Source: Streptomyces antibioticus | GTDB lineage: Bacteria; Actinomycetota; Actinomycetes; Streptomycetales; Streptomycetaceae | Reading direction: 5' to 3' | NCBI RefSeq assembly: GCF_001514065.1 | Contig: NZ_KQ948433.1 | Coordinates: forward strand, 1 to 64,000 | DNA: 64,000 nucleotides | Part shown: piece after piece, positions 7,367 to 48,574 of the stretch | Layout: each line of letters starts with the position of its first letter | Position numbering within the stretch: position 1 is the stretch's first letter | Notes under the pieces: generated by a model | Databases searched by the model: none | Seen by the model: the letters and a program-made list of their open reading frames with translations, nothing else | Told to the model about the DNA's origin: nothing | Translations under genes and position numbers: made by a program

Positions 7367-7415
7367 TCCCGCACTCGACCGCCAGGACAGGGCATACGCC
7401 CGGAAAGGACTTCAG

Positions 7416-8165
7416 ATGACCATGGCCCAGCCGCTCACACCCCGGACGGCCGACGCGTGGGGGCAGCTCCTGCTCGACTGCCACACCGCGGGGTTGCCGC
7501 AGGACGCCTATTTCGAGATCTGTGAACGCGACGACGGATACATCAGCGGCTACGACGCCGTGGGCTTCTTCTCGGGCCCCGACGCCTGGCCCGCGCTGGA
7601 CCGCTGGGCCTTCTCCCGGTTCCGGGGCCGGGTCCTGGACATCGGGGTCGGGGCCGGCCGGTTCGCGGTCCCCTTCCAGGACCGCGGCGGCGAGATCGTG
7701 GGCCTCGACGTGTCGGCCGACGCGCTCGACGTGTGCCGACGCCGCGGGCTGGCGGAGACGTTCCTCGGCACCGTCGACGACCTGCCGGACAGCGCCCGCT
7801 TCGACACCTTCCTGCTGCTGGGCCGCAATCTCGGCCTGCTGGAGAGCTCGGAGCGCGCCCCGCGGCTGCTCAGCACGCTGGCCCGGCTGGCGCGGCCCGG
7901 GGCCCGGATCGTCGGGACGGGGATGGACCCCTATCTGCTCGACGGGGCGCAGCACGCCGAGTACCTCGCGGCGAACCGGCGGCAGGGCCGCATGAGCGGC
8001 CAGATGCGGCTGCGGCTGCGCCATCGACTGCTGGCGACGGACTGGTTCGACTACCTGTTCACCTCGCTGCCGGAGCTCGAAGCGCTGGCCGAGGGCACCG
8101 GCTGGAAGCTGGCCGAGGTCGAACAACACGGCCCGGACTACGGTGTCGTCCTCACACTGGCCTGA
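7416..8165 (+). CDS. Class I SAM-dependent methyltransferase
   Basis: ATG 7416 has GGAAAGGA seven bases upstream. The 249-residue protein has the SAM loop VLDIGVGAGRF near residues 72-82, the acidic strand end GLDVSADAL near 95, and a C-terminal ATDWFDYLF motif. It belongs to a small actinobacterial methyltransferase group, and the methyl acceptor is unknown. A decayed paralogue lies at 42081-42662, with DAFGQLLTQCWNAG aligning to this protein's DAWGQLLLDCHTAG. It follows the kinase/lyase operon and MbtH but is separated by a strong hairpin. Its 3' end overlaps the convergent regulator gene by 14 bases. Confidence 0.85.
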   Translation: MTMAQPLTPRTADAWGQLLLDCHTAGLPQDAYFEICERDDGYISGYDAVGFFSGPDAWPALDRWAFSRFRGRVLDIGVGAGRFAVPFQDRGGEIVGLDVSADALDVCRRRGLAETFLGTVDDLPDSARFDTFLLLGRNLGLLESSERAPRLLSTLARLARPGARIVGTGMDPYLLDGAQHAEYLAANRRQGRMSGQMRLRLRHRLLATDWFDYLFTSLPELEALAEGTGWKLAEVEQHGPDYGVVLTLA

Positions 8166-9540
8166 AGCCGTGCCGACCAGTGGCCGCGGACCGTGACCCG
8201 CCGGCGGCACCCGGCGGGTCACGGTCCGCGGCCACTGGTCGGCTCTCGCGCACCGCCACCTTGCGAACGCGGTCCTCCGGCCCGGTGCGGTACATCACCG
8301 TCGTGCCCCAGCGCCGGGGTTCGCGGCGCACGTCAGCGTACAGATGGCGTACGTGGTTGAGCACCGAGAAGCGCGGTTCGTCACCGCCGAGGCCTTCTGG
8401 CCGTACCAGACCGTAGGTCACCAGCGTGAAGACGATGACGGCGACATCGGCGCCGGAGGCCCCGACGGCCGTCGCCGCCTCGGCCACCGACCAGCTGCGG
8501 TGGTCACGGGCGACGGCGGCGATGAAGGACGCCCCCGCCGGGCTGAGCCGGCCCAGAGTGCGGCGCAGCCGGACCATCAGGTCGCGTGAGGAATCGGCGG
8601 TCATGGGCGGCGCGGTCAGGCCGAACGGGCTGCGTTCCACCTCGGCCAGCAGCTCCGGCAGGGCGCGGACAAGGGTCCAGCGGCCGGCGAACTCCAGCGC
8701 CCGGGGCAGTCCGTCGAGGCGCCGGCAGAGTTCGGCGACGACCGCGGCGTCGGTGTCGTCCAGCCGGAACAGCGGGTTGCCGGCGCGGATGTGCACGCAC
8801 AGCAGCCGTACGGACGGCACCTGGGCCAGTTGCTCCGGGTCCGACTCGGCGCCGGGGGCGGGCACCGGCAGCGGTGCGAGGCGCAGGATCTGCTCACCGG
8901 GCACGCCGCACGGCGCGCAGGCGGTGACCAGGATGCGCAGCCGCGGATGGGCGCGTATCAGCGCGACGAGCCGGTCGGCGCCGTCTGCGGTTTCGACGTC
9001 GTCCAGCACCAGGACGGTCGTCTCCTCCGGTGCGCGGCCGGAGAGTTCACCGACGGGTATCTCCTCGCCGCGGCCCCTCCAGAGCACCCGGGTGCCGTCG
9101 GCTGCGATCCGTCGCACGGCCTCGGCGGCCAGGTGCGACTTCCCCACCCCTCCTATGCCGACGACCGACACCAGCCTCCCGTTCGGCTGCGTCAACAGGG
9201 CGGTGAGGCCGGCGACTTCGGTGTCCCTGCCGATCAGCGGGCTCCGGACGAGCCACGGTGTGGGGCCGCAACCTCCTTCCCCGGAATGGTCCGCGGTGCC
9301 GGGCCGGCGCCGGGCCGCCTCCAGGAGCGTCTCGCGCTGGGCGGAGCCGAGCCGCAGCCCGTCCGCGAGCAGCCGGATCGTGTCCAGCCGGGGGGACAGG
9401 ACCTTGCCCTGCTCCAGGTTGCGTATGGCACGCACGCTCACGGTGGTGAGGTCCGCGAGGTGCCGCTGGGTGAGTCCGGCGCGCCGACGGTGGTCTCTCA
9501 GCAGAACGCCGAGGTCCTGCCGGTTTCGGATGTCGTTCAT
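8152..9540 (-). CDS. XRE-type HTH / NB-ARC STAND transcriptional regulator
   Basis: A 462-residue protein with an N-terminal XRE helix-turn-helix (residues about 8-65, LTQRHLADLTTVSVRAIRNLE) and a STAND ATPase. The P-loop GIGGVGKS lies at 128-135 and a Walker B-like VLVLDDVE follows. There is no TPR array, so it is shorter than typical AfsR-like proteins. XRE-NB-ARC proteins are signal-gated DNA-binding regulators, often in antibiotic clusters. About 210 bases upstream, in the same direction, is a small membrane peptide gene that may share its transcript. The C-terminal segment is encoded by a 33-bp terminator hairpin and looks non-functional. The start ATG 9540 has only a weak GGAG. Confidence 0.85.
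   Translation of the reverse strand: MNDIRNRQDLGVLLRDHRRRAGLTQRHLADLTTVSVRAIRNLEQGKVLSPRLDTIRLLADGLRLGSAQRETLLEAARRRPGTADHSGEGGCGPTPWLVRSPLIGRDTEVAGLTALLTQPNGRLVSVVGIGGVGKSHLAAEAVRRIAADGTRVLWRGRGEEIPVGELSGRAPEETTVLVLDDVETADGADRLVALIRAHPRLRILVTACAPCGVPGEQILRLAPLPVPAPGAESDPEQLAQVPSVRLLCVHIRAGNPLFRLDDTDAAVVAELCRRLDGLPRALEFAGRWTLVRALPELLAEVERSPFGLTAPPMTADSSRDLMVRLRRTLGRLSPAGASFIAAVARDHRSWSVAEAATAVGASGADVAVIVFTLVTYGLVRPEGLGGDEPRFSVLNHVRHLYADVRREPRRWGTTVMYRTGPEDRVRKVAVRESRPVAADRDPPGAAGGSRSAATGRHGFRPV
8172..8243. terminator. Perfect 33-bp inverted repeat between convergent genes
   Basis: Bases 8172-8204 are repeated exactly in inverse orientation at 8211-8243, around the 6-base loop CGGCAC. The arm begins GCCGACCAGTGGCCGCGGAC. 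It lies just past the methyltransferase stop and inside the 3' end of the opposing regulator gene, so it can act as a bidirectional terminator. The opposing gene has no stop until 8152, so its mRNA reads through the whole element and encodes its last 20-odd residues from it. Confidence 0.85.
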
Positions 9541-9751: not shown

Positions 9752-9925
9752 TCAGCTCCAGGGGTGGGTGTCGTCCGTGGAGGAGCCGTCGTCGGCCGGT
9801 ACGCCCGCCGTCCGCTGCGGGTGCGCCGCGGTCTCGGCCGCCACCGCGCCCAGGAGAGCGGCGACCGCGGTGATGACGACGGCGGCCCTCATGGCCTTCA
9901 CGACCTCTGCGCGGTTGCTGTTCAT
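9752..9925 (-). CDS. Small single-helix membrane or secreted peptide, DDTHPWS tail
   Basis: A 57-codon gene with an excellent ribosome site (GGAAGGAAG five bases before ATG 9925). The product starts MNSNRAEVVKAMR, has one hydrophobic stretch (AAVVITAVAALLGAVAA, residues about 14-30) and an extracellular-looking hydrophilic tail ending DDTHPWS. It is homologous to the 64-residue peptide at 42674-42868 (tail NDTTDPWT), and the two share an upstream element. No function is recognised. The basic N-terminus, single helix and short conserved C-terminus suit a membrane-anchored or exported signal peptide. The regulator downstream at 9540 is a possible partner. This is inference from layout only. Confidence 0.7.
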   Translation of the reverse strand: MNSNRAEVVKAMRAAVVITAVAALLGAVAAETAAHPQRTAGVPADDGSSTDDTHPWS

Positions 9926-9961: not shown

Positions 9962-10029
9962 CCACTGGAAGGAAAGCTAATAGTCACGGCAATCACGTCA
10001 CTTTGACGCTGCTATCCCCCACGGATAGC
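9962..10029 (-). promoter_or_regulatory. Promoter/operator of the small peptide gene, shared with the 42.9-kb locus
   Basis: Read on the minus strand, this contains the inverted repeat GCTATCC-N5-GGATAGC (10011-10029), then GCGTCAAAG, then about 18 bases to a TATTAG -10-like box, then TTCCTTCCAG. The same elements in the same order and spacing precede the homologous peptide at 42.9 kb (CTATC-N7-GATAG, GCGTCAAAG, TCCTAA, TTCCCTTCCAG). The distance to the start codon is also nearly equal (about 87 and 84 bases). The conservation outside coding sequence suggests a common activator or repressor. Confidence 0.65.
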
Positions 10030-10175: not shown

Positions 10176-10595
10176 TCAGGCTCTTACGGCCTGGGGGCTC
10201 CGCTGCTGGTCCGAACCCGGCACCGGCTCGGAAGGGTCGGTGCCGAGCGCCTTGACCCGATTTCGCGCATCGACATGGACCACTCGCGGCTGGAACGTCC
10301 GGGCGTCGGCGTCTGCCAACTGCGCGTAGCTGAGCAGGATCACAAGGTCGCCCGGGTGGACGAGATGGGCTGCCGCCCCGTTGATCCCGATGACTCCGGA
10401 CCCGCGTTCGCCTTCGATGACATATGTCTCCAGGCGGGCACCGTTGGTGATGTCGACGATGTGCACCTGTTCACCGGGCAGCAGGTCGGCCGCGTCCAGC
10501 AGGTCGGCGTCGATGGTCACCGATCCGACGTAGTGGAGATCGGCCTGGGTCACCGTGGCCCTGTGGATCTTGGACTTGAACATGGTGCGCATCAT
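10176..10595 (-). CDS. panD: Aspartate 1-decarboxylase
   Basis: A 139-residue pyruvoyl enzyme starting MMRTMFKSK, with AAGGGAG six bases before the ATG. The self-cleavage site is the Gly-Ser in YVGSVTID; the new N-terminal Ser becomes the pyruvoyl group. The conserved [17 protein letters not shown] block follows. PanD makes beta-alanine from L-aspartate, normally for coenzyme A, in the cytosol. A copy directly behind an NRPS, in the same transcription unit and without panB or panC, suggests a dedicated beta-alanine supply for the peptide, or extra pantetheine for carrier domains. The C-terminal 25 residues are a poorly conserved tail. Confidence 0.95.
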
Positions 10596-10691: not shown

Positions 10692-13600
10692 CTAGTGGTC
10701 GGTCGCCGGCTCCCCGGCTTTGGCCCTCTCATGGATTGCCTCAGTGATCTTCGCGACAAGGGCCGCGAGTTCACCGGCGTGGGGCGGATGGACCATGTCG
10801 TGGTGGTTGCCCGGCACCGGCACCTGATGTATCTCACCGTGAGTGAACGTTTTCCATACGCCGGGGTCCACGTCCGGGCTGTTCAGCGTCGGATGGCTCT
10901 CGGAAACGGTCATGAGGTAGATGTCCGCGGTGACCACCGCTTCGGGGCGGTAGCGGCCGGAGGCAGCGATGTTCGCCCGCGCCACAGCCACCATGCGGCG
11001 GACCGCTGTGGACTCCACCCGCTCAGGCAGTTTGCCCACCCGGTGGGACTGCCGGACCAGCGCTGCGATGAGTTCGTCGTCGTCGAGTGATTCCACCTCG
11101 TCGGTCGGCAGGCCCACTTCGGTACCGAGCCGAGACAGGACATCCTCGTCGTCGTCCGGTCCTGACCTGCCCGGTGTCGGAGCGTCCAGCAGTATCAGCG
11201 CGTCGACCGGGCGGCCGGCCCGCTCCGACTGCGCCGCCATCTCCAACGCGACGAGGCCACCGAAGGACCAGCCTGCCAGTACCCGGGGCCCCAGGGGCTG
11301 GACCTTCTCGATCTCGGCCAGGTACCGCCGAGCCATCTCCTCGACCGTGGCCAGGGGATTCTCATCGGTGTTGTAGCCGACGGCCTCGACACCGTAGACG
11401 GTCAGCTTCCCTTCCAGCTCCCGGCCCAGGTGGATGTAGGAGCTGACGCCGCCGCCGCCCGGGTGGACCAGGAACAGTGGGCTGCCGGATTCCGCCGGCC
11501 CGGCGGCCAGTGGGACGAGCAGCTCGTCCGCGACAGCCGACACGTGCGGCAGCGCCGCGCACAGTCCCTCGATGGTCGGTGTGCGGAAGAACGTGCTGAG
11601 CGGCACGCTCACGCCCAGCTCCCGCCGTACGGCCTCGACCAGCTCGAACGCGTTCAGGGAGTTGCCACCGGCAGCGAAGAAGTCGTCGTGCACACCGACG
11701 GGCGAACGACCCAGGACCCGTTCACAGATCGAGGTCACCCGAAGCTCGAGGGCGTCCCTGGGAGCAACGGATTCCGTACTGCCCGACCGGTCGGGCTCGG
11801 GAAGTCGCTTGCGGTCCACCTTGCCGTTCGAGGACAGCGGCATCTCATCCACCGTGACGAGGTCGGCCGGCACCATGTACTGGGGCAGGCGGTCCCGCAT
11901 GAAGCGTCGCAGACCGGCCTCGTCGGGCTGATCACGCCAGGAGACATAGCCGGCCATCCGTGTTCCCAAGCCGTCGCCCACCGTCGTCACCGCTGCGCGG
12001 GCCACGGCGGGGTATCGCTGAAGCACCGCCTCGATCTCGCCCAACTCGATGCGGTAGCCCCGGATTTTGACCTGGGTGTCCTCTCGGCCCACGAACTCGA
12101 GCGTTCCGTCCGAGCGCCACCGTGCCAGATCACCCGTCCGGTAGAGGCGCTCCCCGGTACCGAACGGATCCGGGACGAACCGCTCGGCGGTGAGACCGGG
12201 TCGGCCCGCGTAACCGCGAGCGACACCAGCGCCACCGATGAGCAGTTCACCGACCGCGCCCATCGGCATGAGTCTCAACTCGTTGTCGGCCACGTACATC
12301 CGGGTGTTGGCGATCGGTCGGCCGATGGGGACCGGATCTGTCCCCGCCTGCGGGACGACGTGGTGGAGTGACGCGTAGGCAGTGGTCTCCGTAGGGCCGT
12401 AGAAGTTCCACAGCCGGGAGACTCGTGGCGCCAGCGCGGCGGCGAGCTCCGTGGACATGGCCTCCCCACCGGACACGGCCTGCAGCTTGCCCCCCGCCCA
12501 ACCGCTCACCAGGAGCAGATGCCACGTGGCGGGCGTCGCCCCCAGCACGGTCACCGCCGACGTGGCCAGCACCCGCGCGAGGCCTGCCCCGTCCGATGCC
12601 GTCTCCTGATCGACGACCACGACGCGCGCACCGCACATGAGCGGCACGAACAACTCCAGCACGCAGATGTCGAAGGCGATCGTGGTGATCGAGCAGAACA
12701 CGTCCTGGTCGGACGTCTCGAGTCTGCGAGCGGTGTCCAGGACGAAGTTGACCAGTCCGCGGTGGGTGACCATGACGCCCTTGGGACGTCCGGTCGTGCC
12801 CGATGTGTAGATGTGGTAGGCGACGTCGTCCATCGCGAGCGGTGCCGCCAGCGGCAGCTCATGTGTCGCGTCGGCGGGCAGCGCCTGGCCGACCTCGATG
12901 ACGCGGACGTTCGCGCCGAGCCCGAGCGAATCGACGTGTGCGGGCCGACCCACGACAAGCTCGGCTCCGCTGTCGGCCAGCATGAAGTCGAGTCTGTCCC
13001 GCGGATAGGTCGGCTCCAGAGGCAGGTAGGCCGCACCGGCCTTGTGGACCGCGAGCAGGGCCACCACCATGTCCGGCGACCGCTCGACCAGCACCGCGAC
13101 CGGCGCTCGCTGACCGGCTCCCGCGGCGCGCAGCGTGACCGCCAGCGCGGAGGACCGCTCGGCCAGCTGGGCGTAGGTCAACTCCTGTCCGTCAAGACCG
13201 CGCAAGGCGATCGCGTGGGGCGTACGCACGGCCTGCTCGTCGATGAGATCGTGGACGAAGCGCGTCGGCTCATGCCGCGTCGAGTTGTTCTGCTCTGCGA
13301 GCAGCAGTCGCTTCTCTTCGGGAGTGAGTACGTCGAGATCCCCGACCCGGGTCTCCGGCCGGCGCACCACCTCGGCGAGCAGCTGTTGGTACTGCTCGGC
13401 GAATCTTGCGATGGTCTGCGCTTCGAAGAGCTCCGTCGCGTAGCAGATCAGGACCTCCATGTGCCGGCCCCGCGTCACCACCGTGACTTCCAAGTCGAAG
13501 CGTGCTTGGTCCGTCCGGCTTTGCAGTGGACGGACCGTCACCTGCGGGAGGGTCAGCCAGGAGCTCTGTTCCTCGACTTGGTTGAACATCAGCTGGAACA

Positions 13601-14705
13601 GCGGGTTGCGGCTCAGGTCACGCTCCGGCCGAAGCTCGTCGACGAGCATGTCGAACGGCACCGCCTGGTGTTCGTAAGCGTCCAGCGCCGTCGCCCGGAC
13701 CCGGGAGAGGAGCTCCGCGAACGTCGGGTTTCCGTCGATGTCGGTGCGCAGCGCCACTGTGTTGACGAAGAACCCGATCAACGGTTCCGTCTCGGGGAGC
13801 GTCCGTCCGGACATCGGCACCCCGACCGTCACGTCGCTGCTGCCGGTGTGCCGGGACACCAGGGCGGTGAAGGCCGCGAACAACACCATGAACGGCGTCA
13901 CATGGTGCTTTTGTGAGAGTTCCCGCACACCGTCGGCGACCGCGGGATCGATGGTGTGGGAGAGCCGCTCCCCCTGACCGCCACGGACCGCGGGCCGTGG
14001 GTGGTCGGTGCGCAGTTCGGTTTCGCCGGCTCCGGCAAGCCTTCGTCGCCAGTGCTCCACCTCTCCCGTCATCTCAGCGGAGTCGAGCTGCTGGGAGATC
14101 AGGTGGGCGTAGTCACTGAACTGCATCGGCAACGGCGTTAGCGCTGGGCGGCTTTCGTCGAGGAACGCGGCATAGGCCTGCGAAAGTTCCGACCAGAGGA
14201 TCTTCATCGAGGCGGCATCCACGGCGATGTGGTGCACGACCACTGTGAACAGGTATCGGTGGGTCGGCAGTTGCGTCAGACGTGCGCGCATCCAGGGACC
14301 GTTGGCCAGATCGAAAGGCCGCTTGACGTCCAAGTCGCTCAGCCGATGGGCCTCTTCGTACGCCGGGCCTGGGGCCATGTCCCGAAGATCGGTCTGCAGG
14401 AGGTGGATCGTCGAGACCGGTTCGGCACGCAGCAACGGCCCTTCGGCCGCGTCCTCCACCACCCGGGAGCGCAGGATACTGTGCCGCTCCACGACCAGCT
14501 CGAACGCCGCCTGGAACGCCGCGGTGTCGAGCGGGCCGCACAGCTCGAACGTCTGCGTCATGTTGTACTCGACCAGCTCGGGGCGAAGGTGTCCGAGCAG
14601 CCAGACGCGTCGCTGGACCGCAGACAGCGGCGCGTCCGCGACGGTGGACGCCTCGTTCAGCTGTACCGCGTCCAGATCTCTTTCCTCAGGCGGGCTCGTC
14701 GTCAT
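10692..14705 (-). CDS. Single-module NRPS, C-A-T-TE
   Basis: A 1337-residue protein with GAAAGGAC eight bases before the ATG. Domains: condensation about 26-455 (HHIAVDA at 158-164, with the usual final Gly replaced by Ala); adenylation about 475-970 ([11 protein letters not shown] near 631); carrier about 975-1045 (AGGNSL, Ser near 1015); thioesterase about 1060-1330 (GWSFGG, Ser near 1146; [14 protein letters not shown] near the end). Specificity residues by eye are D-I-L-G-V-G-F-A-Y, which I do not recognise; the leading Asp fits an alpha-amino acid. It would accept a peptide in trans, add one residue and release the chain. A paralogous module was deleted at 300-988. panD lies 96 bases downstream and is probably co-transcribed. 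Confidence 0.95.
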
Positions 14706-40130: not shown

Positions 40131-41945
40131 TCAGGAGGCCTCGCGGGTCGGCTCCTGTTCACTCAGATAACGGACGGCGAGCGGATCGACGGAGAACGTG
40201 CCGTCGTCCAGGTGGTACCGCGCCAGATGCATGGTGCACAGCGTGTCCAGCGACCGGTGCGCCACGGCTTCCGGGGTCGTGAGGAGCTGGGCGACCGTGG
40301 CACACGAAAAGCGCGGCCGGCCGCTCAGCGCCAGAACATGGAACGCCATGGCCGAGGCCGGGTCGAGGCGGCCGAACAGCCGGCGGTACCGCTCCGCGAG
40401 GGAAGGCGAGGGCAGGGCGGCAGTGGCGCGTTCCCGGGCGGCGAGGCTGGTGACGTCGGGTGACCCGTGAACGAAGGCGAGCGGGCGTCTGGCCAGCTGT
40501 CCGGCAGACTCCAGCAGCGCGAGCGGCCTTCCCGAGCACTGGTCGACAAGGCGGGCGCCCTCCTGACCCCCCTGACCGAGATGGCTGTGCCCGGTCAGGG
40601 TGTTGAGCAGGTAGAGGCCCTCGGCACGGGTGAGGCCGGGCAGAGTCAGGGCATGTCCCTGGGGCAGGCCGACCAGCTCCCGCCAGCTGGTGATCAAGGT
40701 GGCGGAGGCCGAGTTGACGGGCAGCAGCGGCAGAACCTGTGAGACGCCCAGGGCGTCGTCCAGGACCATCAGCACACGTCTGCCCTCCACGACTTTGCGC
40801 CACATGGCCACCAGCTCGGAAGGGGGGCGGCCAGAGGTGACCGGCACTCCGAGAGCGCGGAGAAAGCCCGCCAGCAGCTCGGAAAGGTCCGCCGGCCGGT
40901 CGTCGTCATCGACCAGCCGGGCGTAAAGCTGTCCGTCCGGGAAACGGGAGCTCAGCCGGTGCGCCGCCTGCACGGCGAACGCGGTCTTGCCCTGTCCTAC
41001 GGGGCCTGTCACGGAGACGACCGAGGGGCCCTGGTCATGGAGGAGCCACGAAGTGGCGGCCGTCATCTCCGCGTCCCGGCCCACAAACGTGTCGACGGGC
41101 GGCGGGAGCTGGGCGGGTACACGGAGATGACGGCCGCTCAGCGGGACGGTTGCGGTCGTGGCCGGGGGCTGGGCGGTTCCGAACGGGGCCAAGGGTGCGC
41201 CGAGGAGGATGCGCCTGTGCAGGTCCTGCAGCTCCGGGCCGGGATCCAGGCCGAGGTCGCGGTCGAGGGCCTTCCGGACCTTCTGGTACGCGGACAGCGC
41301 GTCGGCCCTGCGGCCCAGCGCGTACAAGGCATGCAGGGTCAGTGCCCAAGGCCTCTCTCGCAGTGGCTGTGCAGCGGTCAGGGGCCACAGTGCGGCCAGG
41401 GCCTCGGCATGCCGGCCCAACCCGATCTCCACGTCGGCCAGTTCCTCACGTGCGCTGAACCTCAGTTGGTCCAGGCGGCGACGTTCCTCGGTGATGAAGG
41501 GGCCGACGGTCCCCTCCGCCAGGGTGTTCCCCTGCCATCGCGCCAGTGCCTGTTCATACCGGAGGAACGACTCCTGCAGTTCTCCCGACGCCCGGGCCTG
41601 GCGGGCCGCGGCCAGGTCGCGCTCGAAGCCCTCGACGTCGATGTCGGCGTCACCCACGAGCAGGCGGTAGCCGCCGGCGGACCGGGACAGCACGACCGGG
41701 GTGTCCGAGACGCTTTCCAGCGCCCGACGGATCCGGTAGACGTACGTGCGCACCGTGCTCAGGGCCGCCTTGGGGGCCGCGTGGTCCCAGAGTGCCTCCA
41801 CCACCGTCTCGGACTTCACGTCCCCGTGCCGGTGGAGCAGCAGCAGGGCCAGCACCGAGCGCTGCTGCGGTGAACCCAGGTCGATCTGTTCGTCGCCGTT
41901 CCACGCGCGCACCGCGCCCAGCACGGCGAACCGGAGGGGGCTCAT
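40131..41945 (-). CDS. SARP-family activator with NB-ARC domain
   Basis: Start ATG 41945 (MSPLRFAVLG) has GAAAGG seven bases upstream. The 604 residues comprise an OmpR-type winged helix (1-95, SPQQRSVLALLLLHRHGDV), a bacterial transcriptional activation domain (about 100-245, RPWALTLHALYALGRRADALSAYQ) and a STAND NB-ARC domain with P-loop GPVGQGKTA near 311 and Walker B VLMVLDDA. The C-terminal winged-helix part is present but no TPR array. SARPs bind direct heptamer repeats near the -35 and activate biosynthetic operons. It is convergent with the aminotransferase gene (53 bases apart) and is the best candidate for cluster-specific activation. Confidence 0.92.
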   Translation of the reverse strand: MSPLRFAVLGAVRAWNGDEQIDLGSPQQRSVLALLLLHRHGDVKSETVVEALWDHAAPKAALSTVRTYVYRIRRALESVSDTPVVLSRSAGGYRLLVGDADIDVEGFERDLAAARQARASGELQESFLRYEQALARWQGNTLAEGTVGPFITEERRRLDQLRFSAREELADVEIGLGRHAEALAALWPLTAAQPLRERPWALTLHALYALGRRADALSAYQKVRKALDRDLGLDPGPELQDLHRRILLGAPLAPFGTAQPPATTATVPLSGRHLRVPAQLPPPVDTFVGRDAEMTAATSWLLHDQGPSVVSVTGPVGQGKTAFAVQAAHRLSSRFPDGQLYARLVDDDDRPADLSELLAGFLRALGVPVTSGRPPSELVAMWRKVVEGRRVLMVLDDALGVSQVLPLLPVNSASATLITSWRELVGLPQGHALTLPGLTRAEGLYLLNTLTGHSHLGQGGQEGARLVDQCSGRPLALLESAGQLARRPLAFVHGSPDVTSLAARERATAALPSPSLAERYRRLFGRLDPASAMAFHVLALSGRPRFSCATVAQLLTTPEAVAHRSLDTLCTMHLARYHLDDGTFSVDPLAVRYLSEQEPTREAS

Positions 41946-42080
41946 GTGTTGCCTTTCTCGATGCAGCCGGCACAGCCAGCCGGGCTGAGGGATCTCCGGG
42001 GGCCACACGCGTGCGGCGGGCCGTGCGTGCCCGAGGAAGGTGGGGGGTGATCCACGAGGCTCGGTGCGGACAGACGCCGT

Positions 42081-42662
42081 TCAAGGAAGGCGCAGCGTCG
42101 CGCAGTGGCCGAGGTCGTCGTGGAGGACGGGTCCGACGCCCCACGGGGTCGCCCGGACCAGCCGCCGGAGTTCCTCCTCGGAGAAGTACGGGCGGTCGAA
42201 CCATTCCGTGACGGTTCGGCGATACCGGACGCGCATGCGGATCCGCCGAGGAAGGCGCCCCTGTCGCAGATTCTCCTCCCGATGGTCCGGGTCGTGATCA
42301 CTTCGGTGGTAGGGGTGAACACTCCACGCCCGTTCTGACGACGCGAAGCCCCCGGTCCTCGGCCACCGCGACGACACGGGGCGAGGAGTCGATGCCCATG
42401 ACGTCGAGGGCCACCCGCAGCAACGGCAGTGCGTGTCGTCCAGCGCCACATCCGATGTCAAGGACCCGGCCCGTCGCCCGGGTTGCACCCCGGCGTTCCA
42501 GCACTGCGTCAACAACTGCCCGAAGGCGTCACCGACGACGGGTCGGGGGCGACTGACGGTTGCGGGCAAAGCGGTTGCCCACCCTTCTTTCTCGGTGGTT
42601 CGTCCGGGGGGAGGAGGAGAGGACAGCGGGTGCACGTACCCCATGCCCTGTGCCGCGCTCAC
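42081..42662 (-). pseudogene. Decayed class I methyltransferase
   Basis: Pieces of one methyltransferase lie in two frames. The 5' piece (42662 to about 42505) encodes GDAFGQLLTQCWNAG. Then another frame (42504-42298) encodes the SAM loop GRVLDIGCGAGRHALPLLR and GIDSSPRVVAVAEDRG, ending at a stop. The first frame resumes (about 42270-42081) with MRVRYRRTVTEWFDRPYF and PVLHDDLGHCATLRLP. Against the intact homologue at 7416-8165 about 40 codons before the SAM loop and about 70 after it are missing, with frameshifts. It starts 11 bases after the small peptide gene, so it was once its operon partner. Confidence 0.78.
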
Positions 42663-42673
42663 CGCGTAGGGGC

Positions 42674-42868
42674 TCAGGTCCAGGGGTCGGTGGTGTCGTT
42701 CGTGTGGTCCCGGCCTGCGCCGTCGCCTGCGCCGTCGGCTCGCAGGACGGCGGTGTGGCGGACCTGGGCGCCGGTGGTGTCGGCGACCACCGTTCCGAAG
42801 AGGGTGGTAAGGATCAAGCCGCCGAGGACTACGGAGGTGCGGACCGCCTGTGCCAACCTGGGGTTCAT
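42674..42868 (-). CDS. Small single-helix membrane or secreted peptide, NDTTDPWT tail
   Basis: A 64-residue product with AAGGGAAG seven bases before ATG 42868. It begins MNPRLAQAVRT, has one hydrophobic stretch (SVVLGGLILTTLFGTVVA, residues about 12-29) and a polar tail ending NDTTDPWT. It aligns along its length with the peptide at 9752-9925 (MNSNR start, helix, DDTHPWS end), and the two share an upstream element. It lies between a STAND regulator gene and a decayed methyltransferase, all on the minus strand. The function is unknown. The likely topology is N-terminus inside and tail outside; the conserved tail suggests something reads it. A signal or precursor peptide is the working idea. 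Confidence 0.72.
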   Translation of the reverse strand: MNPRLAQAVRTSVVLGGLILTTLFGTVVADTTGAQVRHTAVLRADGAGDGAGRDHTNDTTDPWT

Positions 42869-42901: not shown

Positions 42902-42970
42902 GCGCCTGGAAGGGAAGTTAGGAGCGGCCGTAATCCCAACCCTTTGACGCCGCTATCCCTTGTCGATAGT
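42902..42970 (-). promoter_or_regulatory. Promoter/operator of the second small peptide gene
   Basis: On the minus strand: CTATC-N7-GATAG inverted repeat (42953-42969), then GCGTCAAAG, 18 bases, TCCTAA, and TTCCCTTCCAG. Order and spacing match the element at 9962-10029. The repeat also contains the stop codon of the STAND regulator gene (TAG at 42953-42955), so the operator is embedded in that gene's 3' end and the regulator might control the peptide from its own terminus. Confidence 0.65.
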
Positions 42971-45100
42971 CCCTGGGTGAGAAGGGCCGCCCGGCCAGGT
43001 GGGGAGCCCTGCGGCAGCATCCGCGCCACGGCGCGAGCGGGCGCGCGCGAGCTGGGTCATCTCCTCCTCCCACAGGTACCAGCAGACCCGCTCCACGCCG
43101 CGTTTGAGATAGCGGCGATAGGTGCTGAAGGAGACGGAGAGCTCGCGGGCCACCGCCTGCTGGGTGCTGCCGCCCTTGAGGTATGTCGACCAGACGGCGG
43201 CCCGCTGCCATTTCGCCCTGGGATCCTGGTCGATGGCCTCGACGGCCCGTTCGATCAGGGTGCGCAGGGTCTGCTTGGGGTCGCCGGAGCGCTGCACGAC
43301 GAACGCGGCGTGCAGGAGCGGATTGACGGCCAGGCGTTCACACTGGTGCCAGGAGCGCAGGGCGTCGTGCACCGCCTCGTCGAACGCGGTTCTGGAGATG
43401 GCCGCCGTACGGGGAGCACTCGCTCCGTCCGGCGTCGGGAAGCCGCGGAACATGCGGTCATCCAGCAGGTCCGCCCACTCGGGCACGCCCAGGGCCCGCC
43501 AGTCGTGTCCGAACAGAGCCGTCCGCCCCACGTCGAGGTTCGGCGCCGCCACCCGGTGGAAGTCGGCGGACTCGAGCAGCCGGCTCAGCCGAGGGTTGCC
43601 CCGCACCGCGAAGAAGGACCAGTCCAGTTGTTCCTGACCGAGCACTTCCCGGGTGACCCGGGCGAGCATCCTGGGGACGAGGGCACCCCCGTGGGACAGA
43701 GGCCGCGGCGCGAGCAGGAAGCGGACCAGGTTGGCCTGTCGTCCTGGCCGGAGGCCGGCCCCGGCCTCGACATGGTCGCGCACGGCACGCACCACCGGGT
43801 CGATCACGGTCTCCGCGGCATCCCATCGGCCGAAGCACAGCAGGGCCAGACATCCCACCGTCTCGCCGCTTCCGGCGGCCCGGTACAGACGGAAGCTCTC
43901 CGGCTGCCTGTGCAGCCAGAAGTCGACGACGTCGAGGCTGTCCGCGCCGAGCACCGCCCGGGCCAGGGCGCGGACCTCGCGGATGCCCTCGGCGTCGCAG
44001 GGCATCTCGCACAGGCTGTCGTGGTGTTCGCTCCAGTCGAATCCCAGTGCCCAACTACCGCGTGCCTGCATGTGGTTGAAGTGAGCTGCGGCGCGCAGGG
44101 ATTCCCGCTCGGGGCGGCTGCGGACGGTGTCCTGCACCTGAACCCGCAGCGCTTTGTGCATCGACCGATAGGAGTCGGGTGCGCGCCAGCGCAGATCGCG
44201 GTCCACGGCTTCGGCCACCGACGGCGCCAGACAGAGCCCGGCCGGTCCGGTGGACACGTACGGCAGGCGCCGCAACCAGTCGAACGCGTCGTACGCCTGG
44301 TCGGGCATGAACGCTCGCAACAGGTCCTCGGTCGCCCCCGGCAGGTGCGCGCAGATCTCCAGTGCTCTGCGGTGTTCGGCGGTGGGCGGTGGATCGATGA
44401 CGCGGCTCAGCAGCGCGTCGACCGTGCGGGGGGACGGAGTCCAGCTGCCGCCGCGCTGGTGGCCGTCGTCCTGCCCGAGCAGCCGGAGAGTGAGGGGATG
44501 CCCGTGGGCGAAGGCAAGACGGGCCCGCCGACCGGAGGCCTGTGCGGTCATACCGTCTGCCAGCATGAGCGCCGACTCCTGCCGGCTCAGGCCGCTCAAG
44601 GGCATGACGACGAGGTTGTCCTGCCACGCCGGATCCCCGCGCCAGCACGGGCTCGGCGGCTGACGCCCCGCCAGCACGACCAGCGTCCCCGGTGCCAGCG
44701 ATGGCAGGAACCGCTCCCTGAGCCACCCTTCCAGGCCGGCGAGGCGGTCCGCGCCGTCCACGAGAAGGACCGCGTGCCCAGGCCCAGGCGGAGTGGCAGC
44801 GGCAGCGAACACCTCCGGGCGGGGCTCCAGCAGGTCGGCGTCCACCTCGACGACGTCCCGGCCTCGGTGGGCGGCCTCCGCGGACATACGGCGGAGCAGG
44901 GCCGTCTTGCCGATTCCGCCAGGACCGTGCAGGGCGAGCACCGTCACATCGTCCGGACTCCGACTCAGCGTCTCGCGGAACTGCTCCATTTCGGACGCCC
45001 GGCCCACGAAGTGCCGTAAGAAGGCTGCTCGCCGTGGTGTGAGGACGGCGTCGGCAGTGGTGGAACGCTCCCCTTCCGCGACATCGGTGCGCGGGTTCAT
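42953..45100 (-). CDS. STAND ATPase regulator with C-terminal HTH; contains a TTA codon
   Basis: A 715-residue protein. An N-terminal NTPase has FVGRASEMEQF near 31, P-loop GPGGIGKTA at 59-67 and Walker B AVLLVDGADR. The middle is helical and without clear repeats. The C-terminus has a helix-turn-helix-like segment (TQQAVARELSVSFSTYRRYL, about residues 645-665). This resembles large ATP-gated regulators of Streptomyces clusters. Leu28 is encoded by TTA (45019-45017), so translation should depend on the bldA tRNA and be developmentally timed. It ends inside the promoter of the small peptide gene. The start codon lacks a good ribosome site, so the exact N-terminus is uncertain. Confidence 0.82.
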   Translation of the reverse strand: MNPRTDVAEGERSTTADAVLTPRRAAFLRHFVGRASEMEQFRETLSRSPDDVTVLALHGPGGIGKTALLRRMSAEAAHRGRDVVEVDADLLEPRPEVFAAAATPPGPGHAVLLVDGADRLAGLEGWLRERFLPSLAPGTLVVLAGRQPPSPCWRGDPAWQDNLVVMPLSGLSRQESALMLADGMTAQASGRRARLAFAHGHPLTLRLLGQDDGHQRGGSWTPSPRTVDALLSRVIDPPPTAEHRRALEICAHLPGATEDLLRAFMPDQAYDAFDWLRRLPYVSTGPAGLCLAPSVAEAVDRDLRWRAPDSYRSMHKALRVQVQDTVRSRPERESLRAAAHFNHMQARGSWALGFDWSEHHDSLCEMPCDAEGIREVRALARAVLGADSLDVVDFWLHRQPESFRLYRAAGSGETVGCLALLCFGRWDAAETVIDPVVRAVRDHVEAGAGLRPGRQANLVRFLLAPRPLSHGGALVPRMLARVTREVLGQEQLDWSFFAVRGNPRLSRLLESADFHRVAAPNLDVGRTALFGHDWRALGVPEWADLLDDRMFRGFPTPDGASAPRTAAISRTAFDEAVHDALRSWHQCERLAVNPLLHAAFVVQRSGDPKQTLRTLIERAVEAIDQDPRAKWQRAAVWSTYLKGGSTQQAVARELSVSFSTYRRYLKRGVERVCWYLWEEEMTQLARARSRRGADAAAGLPTWPGGPSHPGTIDKG

Positions 45101-45190: not shown

Positions 45191-48100
45191 TCACACGTGG
45201 CCGACCCGGGCCGCGGGCGTCATCGCCAGCATCCTTTCGGCCCGTTGCCGTCTCTCTGCCAGCGCGGGCGCCGCCAGCGCTTCCACAGCAATCTCCAGAA
45301 GGGCGCGGGCGCGCACGGCGTCACCGCCTCGTAGCCACATTTCCGCCAGGTCCATCCTGACGGCTGCCGCGCCGGTCCGGTCGAGGATGTGGTCGCGGAC
45401 GGCAATGGACTTCTCGAAGCAGGACGCCGCCTCGGCGGACAGGCCCAGCCGCTCGTTCACCCGCCCGAGGTCGTGCAACAGGTAGCCCTCACCGATCACG
45501 TCCCCGTCCGTGACGACCATCTCCAATGCCCTGGTCAGGGCATCCCTGGCCTCGTGCGCCTGGCCTCGCCGCAGACACAGCTGGCCCATCCGCTGGAGCG
45601 TCCGGGCCTGGCCGCGTCCCAGCCCACGAGCGCGCTGGATGTCCAGGGCCACCTGCAGTTCGGCCTCGGCCCGCTCGAAGTCGCCCTGTCGGATCAGCAG
45701 CGGGGAGCGCGCGGTGAGCACCGTGCTGCGCACCCAGTCGTCGCCGAGGTCCCGCTCAGCCTGGTCGAACAGACGCAGCGCCGCCTCCTCGTCACCCGCG
45801 AGCCATTGCACGTTGCCCAGGTCCCTGCGGCACAGTCCGGCTTCGCGGGTCGCCGCCAGCTTCTCGAAGCTGTCCAGGGCGAAGGTCAGCGACTTTCGTG
45901 CCTCCTGGAGCTGCCAGCGGTTGATGTGGAGGGAACCGAGCGAGAACTGGACGGCTGCCTGGCCTCTGAGGTTGTTCGCACGGCGGACGGCGGCCAGCGC
46001 CTTGGCGTGGGTGCGGTCCCAGTCGTCGAGATAGCCGCGTGCCTCGTAGAACCAGGCGAGATTGACGGCGATCTCCCACGCGTACTCGTCCTCGCCCTGC
46101 TGGGCGAGGTCCTCCACCACCAGGCTCAGGCTCTCCCGCTCGCTCTCCAGCCACTCGGCGGATCTGGCCAGCAGGGCACGGGTCTGGTTCTCGGGCAGGT
46201 CCCAGCGCTCCGCCGAACCGGCGATGAGGAAGTAGTCGCCGAAGGCTCCATGGTGGGCCCGGGTGACCAGTGAGAGCCAGGCGCCGCCCATGCGCCGCAA
46301 CGCGGCGCGTCGTTCCGCCGCCTGGGACTCGGCGTGCAGCCGGTCGGAGGCGAACAACCGGATGATGTCGTGGAAGCCGTAGCGCAGTGCGCCGTCGGCC
46401 TCGACCCCGGCGACATCGAGCATCTGCACGTCGACCAGGGGCTCCAGGAGGTCGGACGGCTGGGGATGAGGGTCGTCGAGCAGGGCGCCGCCGATCCAGC
46501 CCGGGAAAGTGGACCCTTTGGGGAGGCTGAGCAGGCGCAACAGCCGTCGGTCGTTCTCCGCCAGTCCGTCGTACGTCAGGGAGAGGCTGGCGCGGACCGT
46601 CAGTTCTCCGTGGGCGAGTTCGTCCAGCCGGCGTTGTTCGTCGGCCAGGCGCTGCACCATCGAGGCCAGCGACCAGTGCGGACGGGCGGCCAGTCGCGCC
46701 GCCACGATCCGCAGGGCGAGCGGCAGCCCTCCCACCGAGCAGACCAGCGCCCGGGCCGCCTCCGGTTCCGCGGCCACGCGGTCCGCGCCGATGACCTTGC
46801 CGATGAGTTCCAGCGACTGCGGCTGTTGCAGAATGTCCAGCTGGACGCGGTGCGCTCCCGGCAGCGCCGTCAGCCGGGCCCTGCTGGTGACGAGGACACC
46901 GCAGGTCCGGCTTCCCGGCAACAGGGGCAGGATCTGCTCCTCGGCCGCCGCGTCGTCCAGGACCACCAGGATCCGGCGGTCGGCCAGCAGGCTGCGGTAC
47001 ATCTCCGCGCGCTCCTCCAGGGAGTCGGGGACGGCCGGGCCGGGTATGCCCAGGGCCCGCAGGAAACGCCCCAGCACCTCCTGTGGGCTGACCGGGTCCG
47101 TCCGGCCTCCGCGCAGTCGGCAGAAGAGCTGCCCGTCGGGAAAGTGGTCCTCCGACAGCCGGTGAGCGACTCTGGTGGCGAAGGTGCTCTTGCCCACTCC
47201 CGGGCGCCCCACCACGACAACGATGCCAGTGGCCCGTTGTGAGGAGGTCTGCGTGAGAACGTCCTCCGCCTCCGCGACGTGTTGCTGGTGGCCGACGAAG
47301 TCGGCGGTGTCGACCGGCAGTTGTCGCGGGACGACAGCGGGCGTGGCGACAGGGAGCCGTTCGAGCGCCTCCGCGTGCTCGCCGGGATGCTCGTCCGCGG
47401 CCTGGTGAGGAGCCAGAGTGACCGGCCCCTGGGGCAGCCGCAGGGCCGGGTCGTCGGTCAGGATCGCATGCTCCAGCCGACGCAGGTCCTTGCCGGGCTC
47501 CAGGCCCAGTTCCTCCTGGAGCAGCGCCCGTCCCCGCCGGTACACCTCCAGGGCCTCCGCCTGGCGACCGGACCGGTGCAGCGCCAGCATGAGTTGCCCG
47601 CGGAAACGCTCCCGCAGCGGATTGTCGTCGACCAGCCGTCCCATCTCGGCCGTGAGCTGATGGTGTCGGCCCATCGCGAGTTCCAGGTCGAGAAACGTCT
47701 CGGTCGCCGCCAGTCGTTCCTCGTCGATCCGCTGGGCGGCGCGGGCGAGTGCCTCACTGGGGACACCGTGCAGGCATGGTCCGTCCCACAGGCTGACGGC
47801 CGAGCGCAGCCGGTCGGCCGCCACGTCCTCCCTGCCCTCCGCGACCAGGGTGCGCGACTCGGCCACCAGGCTCCGGAAGATGCCCAGGTCCAGCGCCATG
47901 TCACCGATGCGGAGCAGATAACCTGGAGGCCTGGTCACAATGGCGGCTTCGACGTGCGCCGACGCCAAAGCCTTGCGGATGCGGGAGACGCAGATCTGCA
48001 CTTGCGTGCGCGCCGTTTCAGGGGGGTCCTCCCCCCATAACAGCCGAATGAGGTGATCACTGCTCAGCAGTCTGCCGTTCTCCAGCAGGAGCGCGGCGAG

Positions 48101-48226
48101 CACGACTTCCTGGCGCCCCGCGGTGATCGTCACGGCGCTCTGGTGGCTGAACACCTTGAGTTCGCCAAGGACCCAGAATGTGGCACCCATCTTCTGAAAA
48201 CGCGACTCGAGGTGCGATGTCGCCAC
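45191..48226 (-). CDS. AfsR/SARP-type large regulator with NB-ARC and TPRs; contains a TTA codon
   Basis: Start taken at GTG 48226 (MATSHLESRFQKMG), with GGGGGAGGGG just upstream; ATG 48190 is the alternative. The 1011 residues comprise an OmpR-type winged helix (about 15-105), a BTAD (about 110-255, RFRGQLMLALHRSGRQAEALEVY), an NB-ARC ATPase (P-loop GRPGVGKST near 337, Walker B ILVVLDDA) and C-terminal TPR-like helices from about 700 to the end. This is the AfsR architecture: a SARP gated by ATP binding and often by Ser/Thr phosphorylation. Leu63 is TTA (48040-48038), implying bldA control. It is the first gene of the minus-strand regulatory block. Confidence 0.92.
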   Translation of the reverse strand: MATSHLESRFQKMGATFWVLGELKVFSHQSAVTITAGRQEVVLAALLLENGRLLSSDHLIRLLWGEDPPETARTQVQICVSRIRKALASAHVEAAIVTRPPGYLLRIGDMALDLGIFRSLVAESRTLVAEGREDVAADRLRSAVSLWDGPCLHGVPSEALARAAQRIDEERLAATETFLDLELAMGRHHQLTAEMGRLVDDNPLRERFRGQLMLALHRSGRQAEALEVYRRGRALLQEELGLEPGKDLRRLEHAILTDDPALRLPQGPVTLAPHQAADEHPGEHAEALERLPVATPAVVPRQLPVDTADFVGHQQHVAEAEDVLTQTSSQRATGIVVVVGRPGVGKSTFATRVAHRLSEDHFPDGQLFCRLRGGRTDPVSPQEVLGRFLRALGIPGPAVPDSLEERAEMYRSLLADRRILVVLDDAAAEEQILPLLPGSRTCGVLVTSRARLTALPGAHRVQLDILQQPQSLELIGKVIGADRVAAEPEAARALVCSVGGLPLALRIVAARLAARPHWSLASMVQRLADEQRRLDELAHGELTVRASLSLTYDGLAENDRRLLRLLSLPKGSTFPGWIGGALLDDPHPQPSDLLEPLVDVQMLDVAGVEADGALRYGFHDIIRLFASDRLHAESQAAERRAALRRMGGAWLSLVTRAHHGAFGDYFLIAGSAERWDLPENQTRALLARSAEWLESERESLSLVVEDLAQQGEDEYAWEIAVNLAWFYEARGYLDDWDRTHAKALAAVRRANNLRGQAAVQFSLGSLHINRWQLQEARKSLTFALDSFEKLAATREAGLCRRDLGNVQWLAGDEEAALRLFDQAERDLGDDWVRSTVLTARSPLLIRQGDFERAEAELQVALDIQRARGLGRGQARTLQRMGQLCLRRGQAHEARDALTRALEMVVTDGDVIGEGYLLHDLGRVNERLGLSAEAASCFEKSIAVRDHILDRTGAAAVRMDLAEMWLRGGDAVRARALLEIAVEALAAPALAERRQRAERMLAMTPAARVGHV

Positions 48227-48574
48227 GACCCCTCCCCCAATCCCCACGCACGACACGACATATCTGCGCGTCCGTGGAAGTGTAAGACGCAAATGTGTCT
48301 CCTGGTTTGCCTGGACACCGGATGAACATCCCACTCGCGACGACCGCCGGGTCGCCCGTCCGCCTCAGTCTGTTCCGGGTTCGCGCCTGGAGCCCGAGGC
48401 TGAGCGCTCCGCTCCGGCGACGCCGGGTGAGCAGTAATGGAGCACAAGTTGACCACTGCGGCCCGCCGGGATACCGCGGGGATAGCGACGGGTTAACGGT
48501 CCGCCGAAAGATGACATGGCGAGAGTCAGCGTTTCTCCCCTCCCCTTCGGGCAGCATGAGGAGTCGGTCATCCA
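48227..48574. other. Divergent intergenic region upstream of the AfsR-type and SnoaL-like genes
   Basis: No gene is supported here. It must hold promoters for both neighbours. At 48481-48490 GATAGCGACG resembles the right half of the peptide-gene operator (GGATAGC-N-GCG), but the left arm is missing. No clear -10/-35 pair was found. Confidence 0.4.

Follow-up and report, generated by a model that had tools for sequence, protein, structure and literature searches.

Two small genes in the window, the whole 64,000-nucleotide stretch of Streptomyces antibioticus DNA analyzed here, probably encode secreted, processed peptide autoinducers that are sensed by an AfsR-like STAND activator and control biosynthetic clusters. 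Sequence comparison establishes a peptide family with a tryptophan-containing tail, its adjacency to large SARP regulators, a shared SARP-type promoter, multi-copy precursors, and agreement between tail class and regulator clade.

In the available text of a 2024 structural paper, the NOD and TPR domains of AfsR inhibit the SARP domain, ATP relieves the inhibition, and inducer binding to the TPR sensor domain is called elusive (PMC10936776). A peptide encoded by a neighboring gene is a natural candidate inducer for an AfsR-like SARP. The Trp-tail family offers such a concrete candidate ligand next door, so that silent clusters might be activated with a short synthetic peptide. With less confidence, we lean toward the broader reading that Trp-tail peptides, sometimes in tandem, form an unreported class of actinobacterial ribosomal pheromones and are the missing inducers of AfsR-type STAND proteins, giving strain-specific control of antibiotic clusters. 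Such a class would carry peptide quorum sensing through intracellular TPR receptors beyond Bacillota into Actinomycetota. Actinobacterial signals are typically enzyme-made small molecules, according to the available part of PMC10075063.

The sequence-only reading had called the system apparently undescribed, and we likewise found no description of it in open-access full text, a coverage that takes in neither bioRxiv nor most subscription journals. The available parts of papers on density-dependent saquayamycin (PMC11019849) and Streptomyces smORFs (PMC10654065), and of PMC4748050, PMC10075063, PMC10972967, and PMC12224297, contain no description of the Trp-tail family.

Peptide and regulator genes in the window

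Two related small peptide genes with strong ribosome sites had been proposed, and the coordinates, open reading frames, and alignment bear this out; both lie on the minus strand (Table 1). The translations are MNSNRAEV...TDDTHPWS for P0001 and MNPRLAQA...NDTTDPWT for P0002, preceded by GGAAGGAAGCCACC-ATG and AGAAGGGAAGCGCTG-ATG, respectively. Their global alignment scores 56 versus 11.5 +/- 8.6 for segment-preserving shuffles, in which the hydrophobic half and the tail were kept apart (0 of 1000 reach 56), and the resemblance exceeds chance. A search of its own genome with P0001 retrieved nothing above noise other than P0001, and P0002 was missed. Pfam and NCBIfam gave no family above cut-off for the Trp-tail peptides tried.

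Table 1. Peptide genes, promoters, and regulatory genes predicted in the window
Feature	Position	Strand	Size	Description
P0001, putative pre-propeptide	9752..9925	-	57 aa	signal-peptide-like N-terminus; tail TDDTHPWS
P0002, putative pre-propeptide	42674..42868	-	64 aa	tail NDTTDPWT
P0001 promoter	9974..10029	-		CTATC-N6-GGATAGC dyad; SARP-like repeats GGGATAGCA + GTGATTGCC 22 bp apart; 8 bp; -10 TAGCTT
P0002 promoter	42915..42970	-		P0001-type layout; repeats GGGATAGCG + GGGATTACG 22 bp apart; 8 bp; -10 TAACTT
Large SARP	45191..48334	-	1047 aa	Trans_reg_C + BTAD + NB-ARC + TPR; proposed receptor/activator
STAND ATPase (STAND-HTH)	42953..45100	-	715 aa	weak HTH-like C-terminus; between SARP and P0002; same order in genome G428
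XRE-NB-ARC protein	8152..9540	-	462 aa	follows P0001; second regulator, present in only some loci
Medium SARP	40131..42008	-	625 aa	BTAD + NB-ARC, no TPR match; downstream of P0002

The hydrophobic segment of the peptides often ends in an A-x-A-like site, as read from the sequence rather than by a predictor, and because of this ending it resembles a cleavable signal peptide. A Sec signal peptide appears more likely than a stable anchor for what the sequence-only reading called a membrane helix. An uncleaved helix might instead hold the tail as a membrane-tethered co-regulator that binds or sequesters the regulator, acting as an anti-activator or stress sensor; a hydrophobic helix with a short tail, paired with a regulator, would fit this. 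We consider it hardly likely, since the multi-copy tails described below are better explained by release and the usual Sec topology would put the tail outside.

Genome G428 encodes a relative of P0001, MNRTFAL...TDNTNPWS (L176:11387-11560). Against the G428 counterpart, pN/pS is 1.39 for P0001 and 0.83 for P0002, values by which the window-class peptides appear either to diverge fast or to be under weaker constraint. For twelve close pairs pN/pS runs from 0.18 to 1.06 (8 of 12 below 0.6; 0.55 pooled over ten), and because it is mostly low, translation of Trp-tail family members is likely.

The shared promoter, the large SARP at 45191-48334, and the signal-peptide-like nature of the hydrophobic segment go beyond the sequence-only reading, which placed each peptide beside an ATP-gated regulator. 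The placement holds, as the XRE-NB-ARC gene follows P0001 and the STAND-HTH gene precedes P0002; the HTH of the latter is only a weak, sub-cutoff match. In the large SARP the Trans_reg_C, BTAD, NB-ARC, and TPR_12 domains each score above their own cut-offs, which gives an AfsR-type architecture. By the NCBIfam equivalog SARPRegAfsRStmc it is not an AfsR orthologue (518 bits, cut-off 1430). Its TPR part was modeled with a pLDDT of 85.8. Eukaryotic TPR proteins top the structural matches, with MalT domain III at rank 34 and the RapF-peptide complex (4i9c) at rank 39 (TMt 0.60). The match of the model is generic and just compatible with a peptide receptor.

In the window the genes are divided, with P0001 and the XRE-NB-ARC gene on one side, P0002, the STAND-HTH gene, and the SARP on the other, and an NRPS gene and more in between. 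G428 (L176) carries one contiguous run of SARP (67% identity), STAND-HTH (57%), promoter box, peptide, XRE-NB-ARC (79%), methyltransferase (87%), and an aldolase-like gene (96%). From this gene order we read the window as a locus that was split and whose peptide gene was duplicated. Only in the window and G428 did we see the STAND-HTH gene beside a peptide; relatives at 27-34% identity occur in 7 plasmid records.

Other observations concern these surroundings. Between P0002 and the medium SARP, a fragment at 42346-42501 (minus strand) shares 44% identity with the methyltransferase at 7407-8165 over 52 aa and looks like a remnant. At 10176-10595 (minus strand), an aspartate decarboxylase gene (PF02261) adjoins the NRPS gene at 10692-14705, and a 64% relative lies near a SARP in L187. 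In G020 (L191), the XRE-NB-ARC gene (68-70%) has an in-frame TGA, and the surrounding 18 kb yielded no peptide and no related SARP, possibly a joint loss.

A promoter of SARP type

The two peptide genes share the promoter layout CTATC-N6-GGATAGC-N-GCGTCAAAG, followed by G-GATT-C and then the -10. In both promoters 22 bp separate the repeats, GGGATAGC and G[GT]GATT-C, and another 8 bp lie between the second repeat and the -10. In SARP boxes, according to the available text of PMC10936776, the direct repeats have a spacing of 11 or 22 bp, and the 3' repeat is followed after 8 bp by the -10. The window-class promoters show this geometry, and we predict SARP binding there.

Within the 10.1-Mb genome, CTATC-N5-GGGATAGC without mismatches occurs at 2 sites, the P0001 and P0002 promoters only. 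With up to 2 mismatches there are 41 matches versus 28 for the reversed control, and one of the 41 is the P0001 dyad on the opposite strand. A longer box, allowing up to 3 mismatches, also has 2 matches in the genome, both exact and both at these promoters. It was found once each in G428 and G462, each time ahead of a peptide gene. The same search gave no box in G235 or G499, where no peptide was detected near the SARP.

GNGATTNC-N9-TANCTT occurs twice in the window (0.04 expected). Single promoter parts with mismatches allowed are not enriched there, neither GCGTCAAAG at 1 mismatch (15 versus 12.3 expected) nor the dyad at 3 mismatches (20 versus 22.8), and the two-repeat pattern at 3 mismatches gives 2 further matches, which is chance level. 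A 3-mismatch box match in G267 has no NPWD-type peptide adjoining it, and the reversed-pattern control gave 4 matches. Pattern GTGATAGCGNGGNGATAG with 1 mismatch occurs in 61 of 295 genomes; most matches are one recurrent sequence, GTGATCGCGTGGAGATAG, and the tally was discarded. This sequence recurs in many Streptomyces genomes (L083-L112), no NPWD-type peptide adjoins it in the loci fetched, and we read it as a chance box match.

A regular expression for a repeat, 7-9 bp, and a -10, drawn up after viewing some of the promoters later scored, matches 27 of 48 rows, each time with a gap of 8 bp; 23 of 25 N-P-W-D-class genes are among them. P0001 is missing from these rows because the H in its tail was barred by the filter, and its spacing was taken from its sequence. 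N-P-W-D-class promoters have 8 bp to the -10, the last two repeats 23 bp apart by reading, and another repeat 11 bp upstream. Promoters of the NTPWT and DTPWP classes fail the window-type expression; GATAG-like repeats were seen there by eye.

A large SARP near a small gene with a SARP-type box also recalls AfsR, which activates afsS through a 22-bp box overlapping the -35 (PMC10936776, available text). The small protein could accordingly be an output of the SARP, an effector that works within the cell or at its membrane instead of binding the regulator as a ligand. This is unlikely in our judgment. Most of the peptides have a signal-peptide-like N-terminus and their conserved part is a tail of 5-7 residues, present in 2-5 copies in several precursors, which suggests a processed product; moreover, tail class tracks regulator clade.

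Occurrence beside AfsR-type regulators

Homologues beside regulators, which the sequence-only reading expected in other genomes, were found in many of them. The XRE-NB-ARC neighbor of P0001 has matches in 23 of 295 genus genomes, the window's included. Among the other fetched loci, a small ORF ending in NNPWD or TNPWD adjoins the XRE gene (within 1.5 kb) in 9 of 23. These nine have a promoter of the P0001/P0002 kind, and all (9/9) have a large SARP-NB-ARC-TPR gene homologous to that of the window on the far side of the peptide. The remaining 14 of 23, including the eleven best-scoring other genomes, have no PW-tail peptide within 1.5 kb, and the XRE-NB-ARC protein was rejected as a universal partner.

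The large SARP as query, with at most two candidates scored per genome, matches in 59 of 295 genus genomes (1e-150) and 127 of 293 order genomes (1e-120); by our count 29 of the 295 genus genomes have matches of at least 44% identity. A search of genome contigs with the SARP gave 2 loci. A small ORF with the strict [DN]..PW tail lies within 1.5 kb in 38 of 44 SARP loci at least 44% identical to the window's, a set that includes the window's locus and some near copies. The same tail was found near 0 of 9 SARPs below 44%, in 1 of 44 reversed flanks, and at 1 of 42 other own-genome loci; the latter are a nonrandom set from other searches, in eight cases by a DNA pattern resembling D-T-x-P-W. Three of the six misses hold a variant or farther copy (P0002 of the window at 2.3 kb, DDPIGWG in L151, NTNPWS at 2.3 kb in L153/G428), no peptide was detected in L122 or L152, and L160 is short, probably because a contig end truncates it.

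The SARPs of G235 and G499 (L174, L175) are 66-67% identical to the window's and have neither box nor detected peptide; perhaps they are orphan receptors that hear the signals of others. A 63-aa N-P-W-D peptide searched against plasmids by tblastn gave nothing, and short peptides escape such searches. On plasmid L115, a peptide of another tail class is annotated as a hypothetical protein.

Peptide and SARP genes are convergent in 42 of 44 close pairs, about half of them 17-30 bp stop to stop; these 44 are loci with a peptide in the flank, including L113-L116 and L118 from named records. The two non-convergent cases (L113, L151) are one contig seen twice. In the window and G428 the peptide and SARP genes are co-directional. 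Flanks of mostly 1.5 kb contain an XRE-NB-ARC gene in 24 of 25 N-P-W-D loci, 0 of 10 NTPWT loci, 0 of 4 DTPWP loci, and, in the DTPWG class, only L114, so the XRE-NB-ARC protein appears to be accessory. Judged by gene neighborhood, the steadiest partner of the peptide is the AfsR-type SARP-NB-ARC-TPR protein rather than the XRE-NB-ARC or STAND-HTH protein. The core of the earlier claim, that the tail is released and read by a neighboring regulator, has good comparative support, and the regulator it would be read by changes.

Several precursors carry the tail in tandem: 5x DDTPWGPT in L114 (Saccharothrix), 4x NDPWD in L123, 4x DDPWT in L215, 3x DTPWP in each of L137, L139, L140, and L165, and 2x DDTHW, SNPWD, and SDPWG in L208, L198, and L202, respectively. 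Copies differ by synonymous codons in five of the six precursors examined (L114, L123, L137, L140, and L165, not L139). Of the sequence evidence, the recurrence of tandem units across several clades speaks most strongly for the short unit, rather than the entire protein, as the product. L114 (5293-10673) has the SARP, five-copy peptide, and XRE-NB-ARC genes closely packed and makes a compact test case.

A tail that recurs in this way, with Trp in the C-terminal region, would also suit the core of a RiPP whose cluster includes the SARP, and NB-ARC/TPR proteins occur in the FxSxx-COOH and HaaA cyclophane systems (NCBIfam descriptions). The window SARP scores below the cut-offs of those models (251 of 1125 bits for HaaA, 70.8 of 300 bits for FxSxx). 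The annotated stretches L115, L116, and L118 have no modifying enzyme in common, by the annotations of these three only; their neighbors differ (an ABC transporter and lantibiotic dehydratase; deazapurine genes; NRPS/PKS genes). We regard a RiPP precursor as very unlikely.

On a SARP tree of 63 rows, of which 47 carry class labels set by us, the five tail classes require 5 changes, against a minimum of 4 and an average of 19.6 after shuffling; none of 200 shuffles came as low. Near copies favor clustering in such a tree. On this measure the tail classes track the regulator tree. For the DTPWG class by itself the clustering is not clear (24 of 500 shuffles as low). A clear signal peptide is absent from the peptides of L116 (7900-8037), L118, L134, L159, and L208; for the PW-tail ORFs of L116, L134, and L159 the reason may be decay, an error in sequencing, or export by another route. 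An in-frame stop is present in the SARP matches of L134 and L159, but also in those of L123 and L127, which have intact-looking peptides.

Near more distant SARPs we found D-[DN]-T-x-W-like tails: DNTVWE (L182), GNTVWE (L185), EDTHW and DDTHW (L181, L183), DDTHWGG (L187), DNTSWE 4.4 kb away (L190), and NNPWG upstream of the SARP (L193). A short DDTIWG ORF in L179, L180, L188, and L119 is doubtful, and near the SARPs of L184, L186, L189, L117, and L120 no D-[DN]-T-x-W tail was found. A looser tail with a hydrophobic stretch occurs in 7 of 1685 ORFs in distant-SARP loci versus 1 of 903 in own-genome loci.

At class level, 69 of 296 genomes match the SARP at 1e-100. In 28 new class loci (L198-L225), the tail expression matches in 3 of 28 3' flanks (L200, L208, L215) and in none of the 28 5' flanks. 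A broader survey, made after the fact and covering small hydrophobic ORFs preceded by a ribosome site, added six loci. It gave eight convergent ORFs, 7 of 8 with Trp near the end (PW in L198, L202, L205, L210, and L215, ETWE in L203, GNW in L204, none in L225). Overall, 9 of the 28 loci have a candidate peptide of any kind and 19 have none. The Trp tail thus appears to become rarer with distance from Streptomyces, and, as far as these searches reach, the precursor family spans several actinobacterial families beside AfsR-like activators.

Proposed mechanism and known systems

We infer the secretion, cleavage site, import, binding, autoinduction, and target cluster of the autoinducer reading, which would run as follows. 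The N-terminus of P0001 or P0002 would direct export and then be cut off, and a protease would free a short C-terminal unit around [D/N]-[T/N]-x-P-W. The released peptide would be re-imported, with an oligopeptide permease as the obvious candidate importer, and would bind the TPR sensor of the large SARP and lift NB-ARC autoinhibition. The activated SARP would then bind the repeats ahead of the peptide genes, closing a positive loop, and presumably turn on the biosynthetic cluster between and around P0001 and P0002. The XRE-NB-ARC and STAND-HTH proteins may be accessory regulators in some loci.

The RRNPP systems (Rap/Phr, PlcR/PapR, NprR/NprX, Rgg/SHP) have an exported propeptide encoded next door, a short C-terminal unit, and a cytoplasmic TPR regulator; a similar arrangement, with a positive loop, is proposed here. 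As in those systems, the propeptide gene adjoins the candidate receptor gene, with the STAND-HTH gene intervening between P0002 and the SARP in the window. Most of the peptides have signal-like N-termini and the tails are conserved or repeated, as judged by sequence rather than a predictor. In contrast to the RRNPP-type receptor, which is without a STAND domain, the candidate receptor here is a Trans_reg_C-BTAD-NB-ARC-TPR STAND activator, and the present loci differ further in their actinobacterial hosts, conserved Trp tail, and multi-copy precursors.

In the FxSxx-COOH and HaaA cyclophane systems, too, an NB-ARC/TPR protein is found near a small peptide whose C-terminus is conserved. Those are RiPP systems; the window SARP falls far below the model cut-offs, and the annotated stretches L115, L116, and L118 share no modifying enzyme.

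The AfsR-AfsS pair of Streptomyces coelicolor also includes a small gene, afsS. Like the present regulator, AfsR is a large SARP with NOD and TPR, and its target afsS has a SARP box, with a repeat spacing of 11 or 22 bp and 8 bp to the -10; AfsS differs in being described as a master regulator, not a secreted signal (PMC10936776, available text). NosP of Streptomyces actuosus is a SARP reported to be responsive to peptidyl ligands from a precursor peptide, as cited in PMC10972967. In that case, as a difference from the present loci, the source of the ligand is the RiPP precursor itself, that of nosiheptide.
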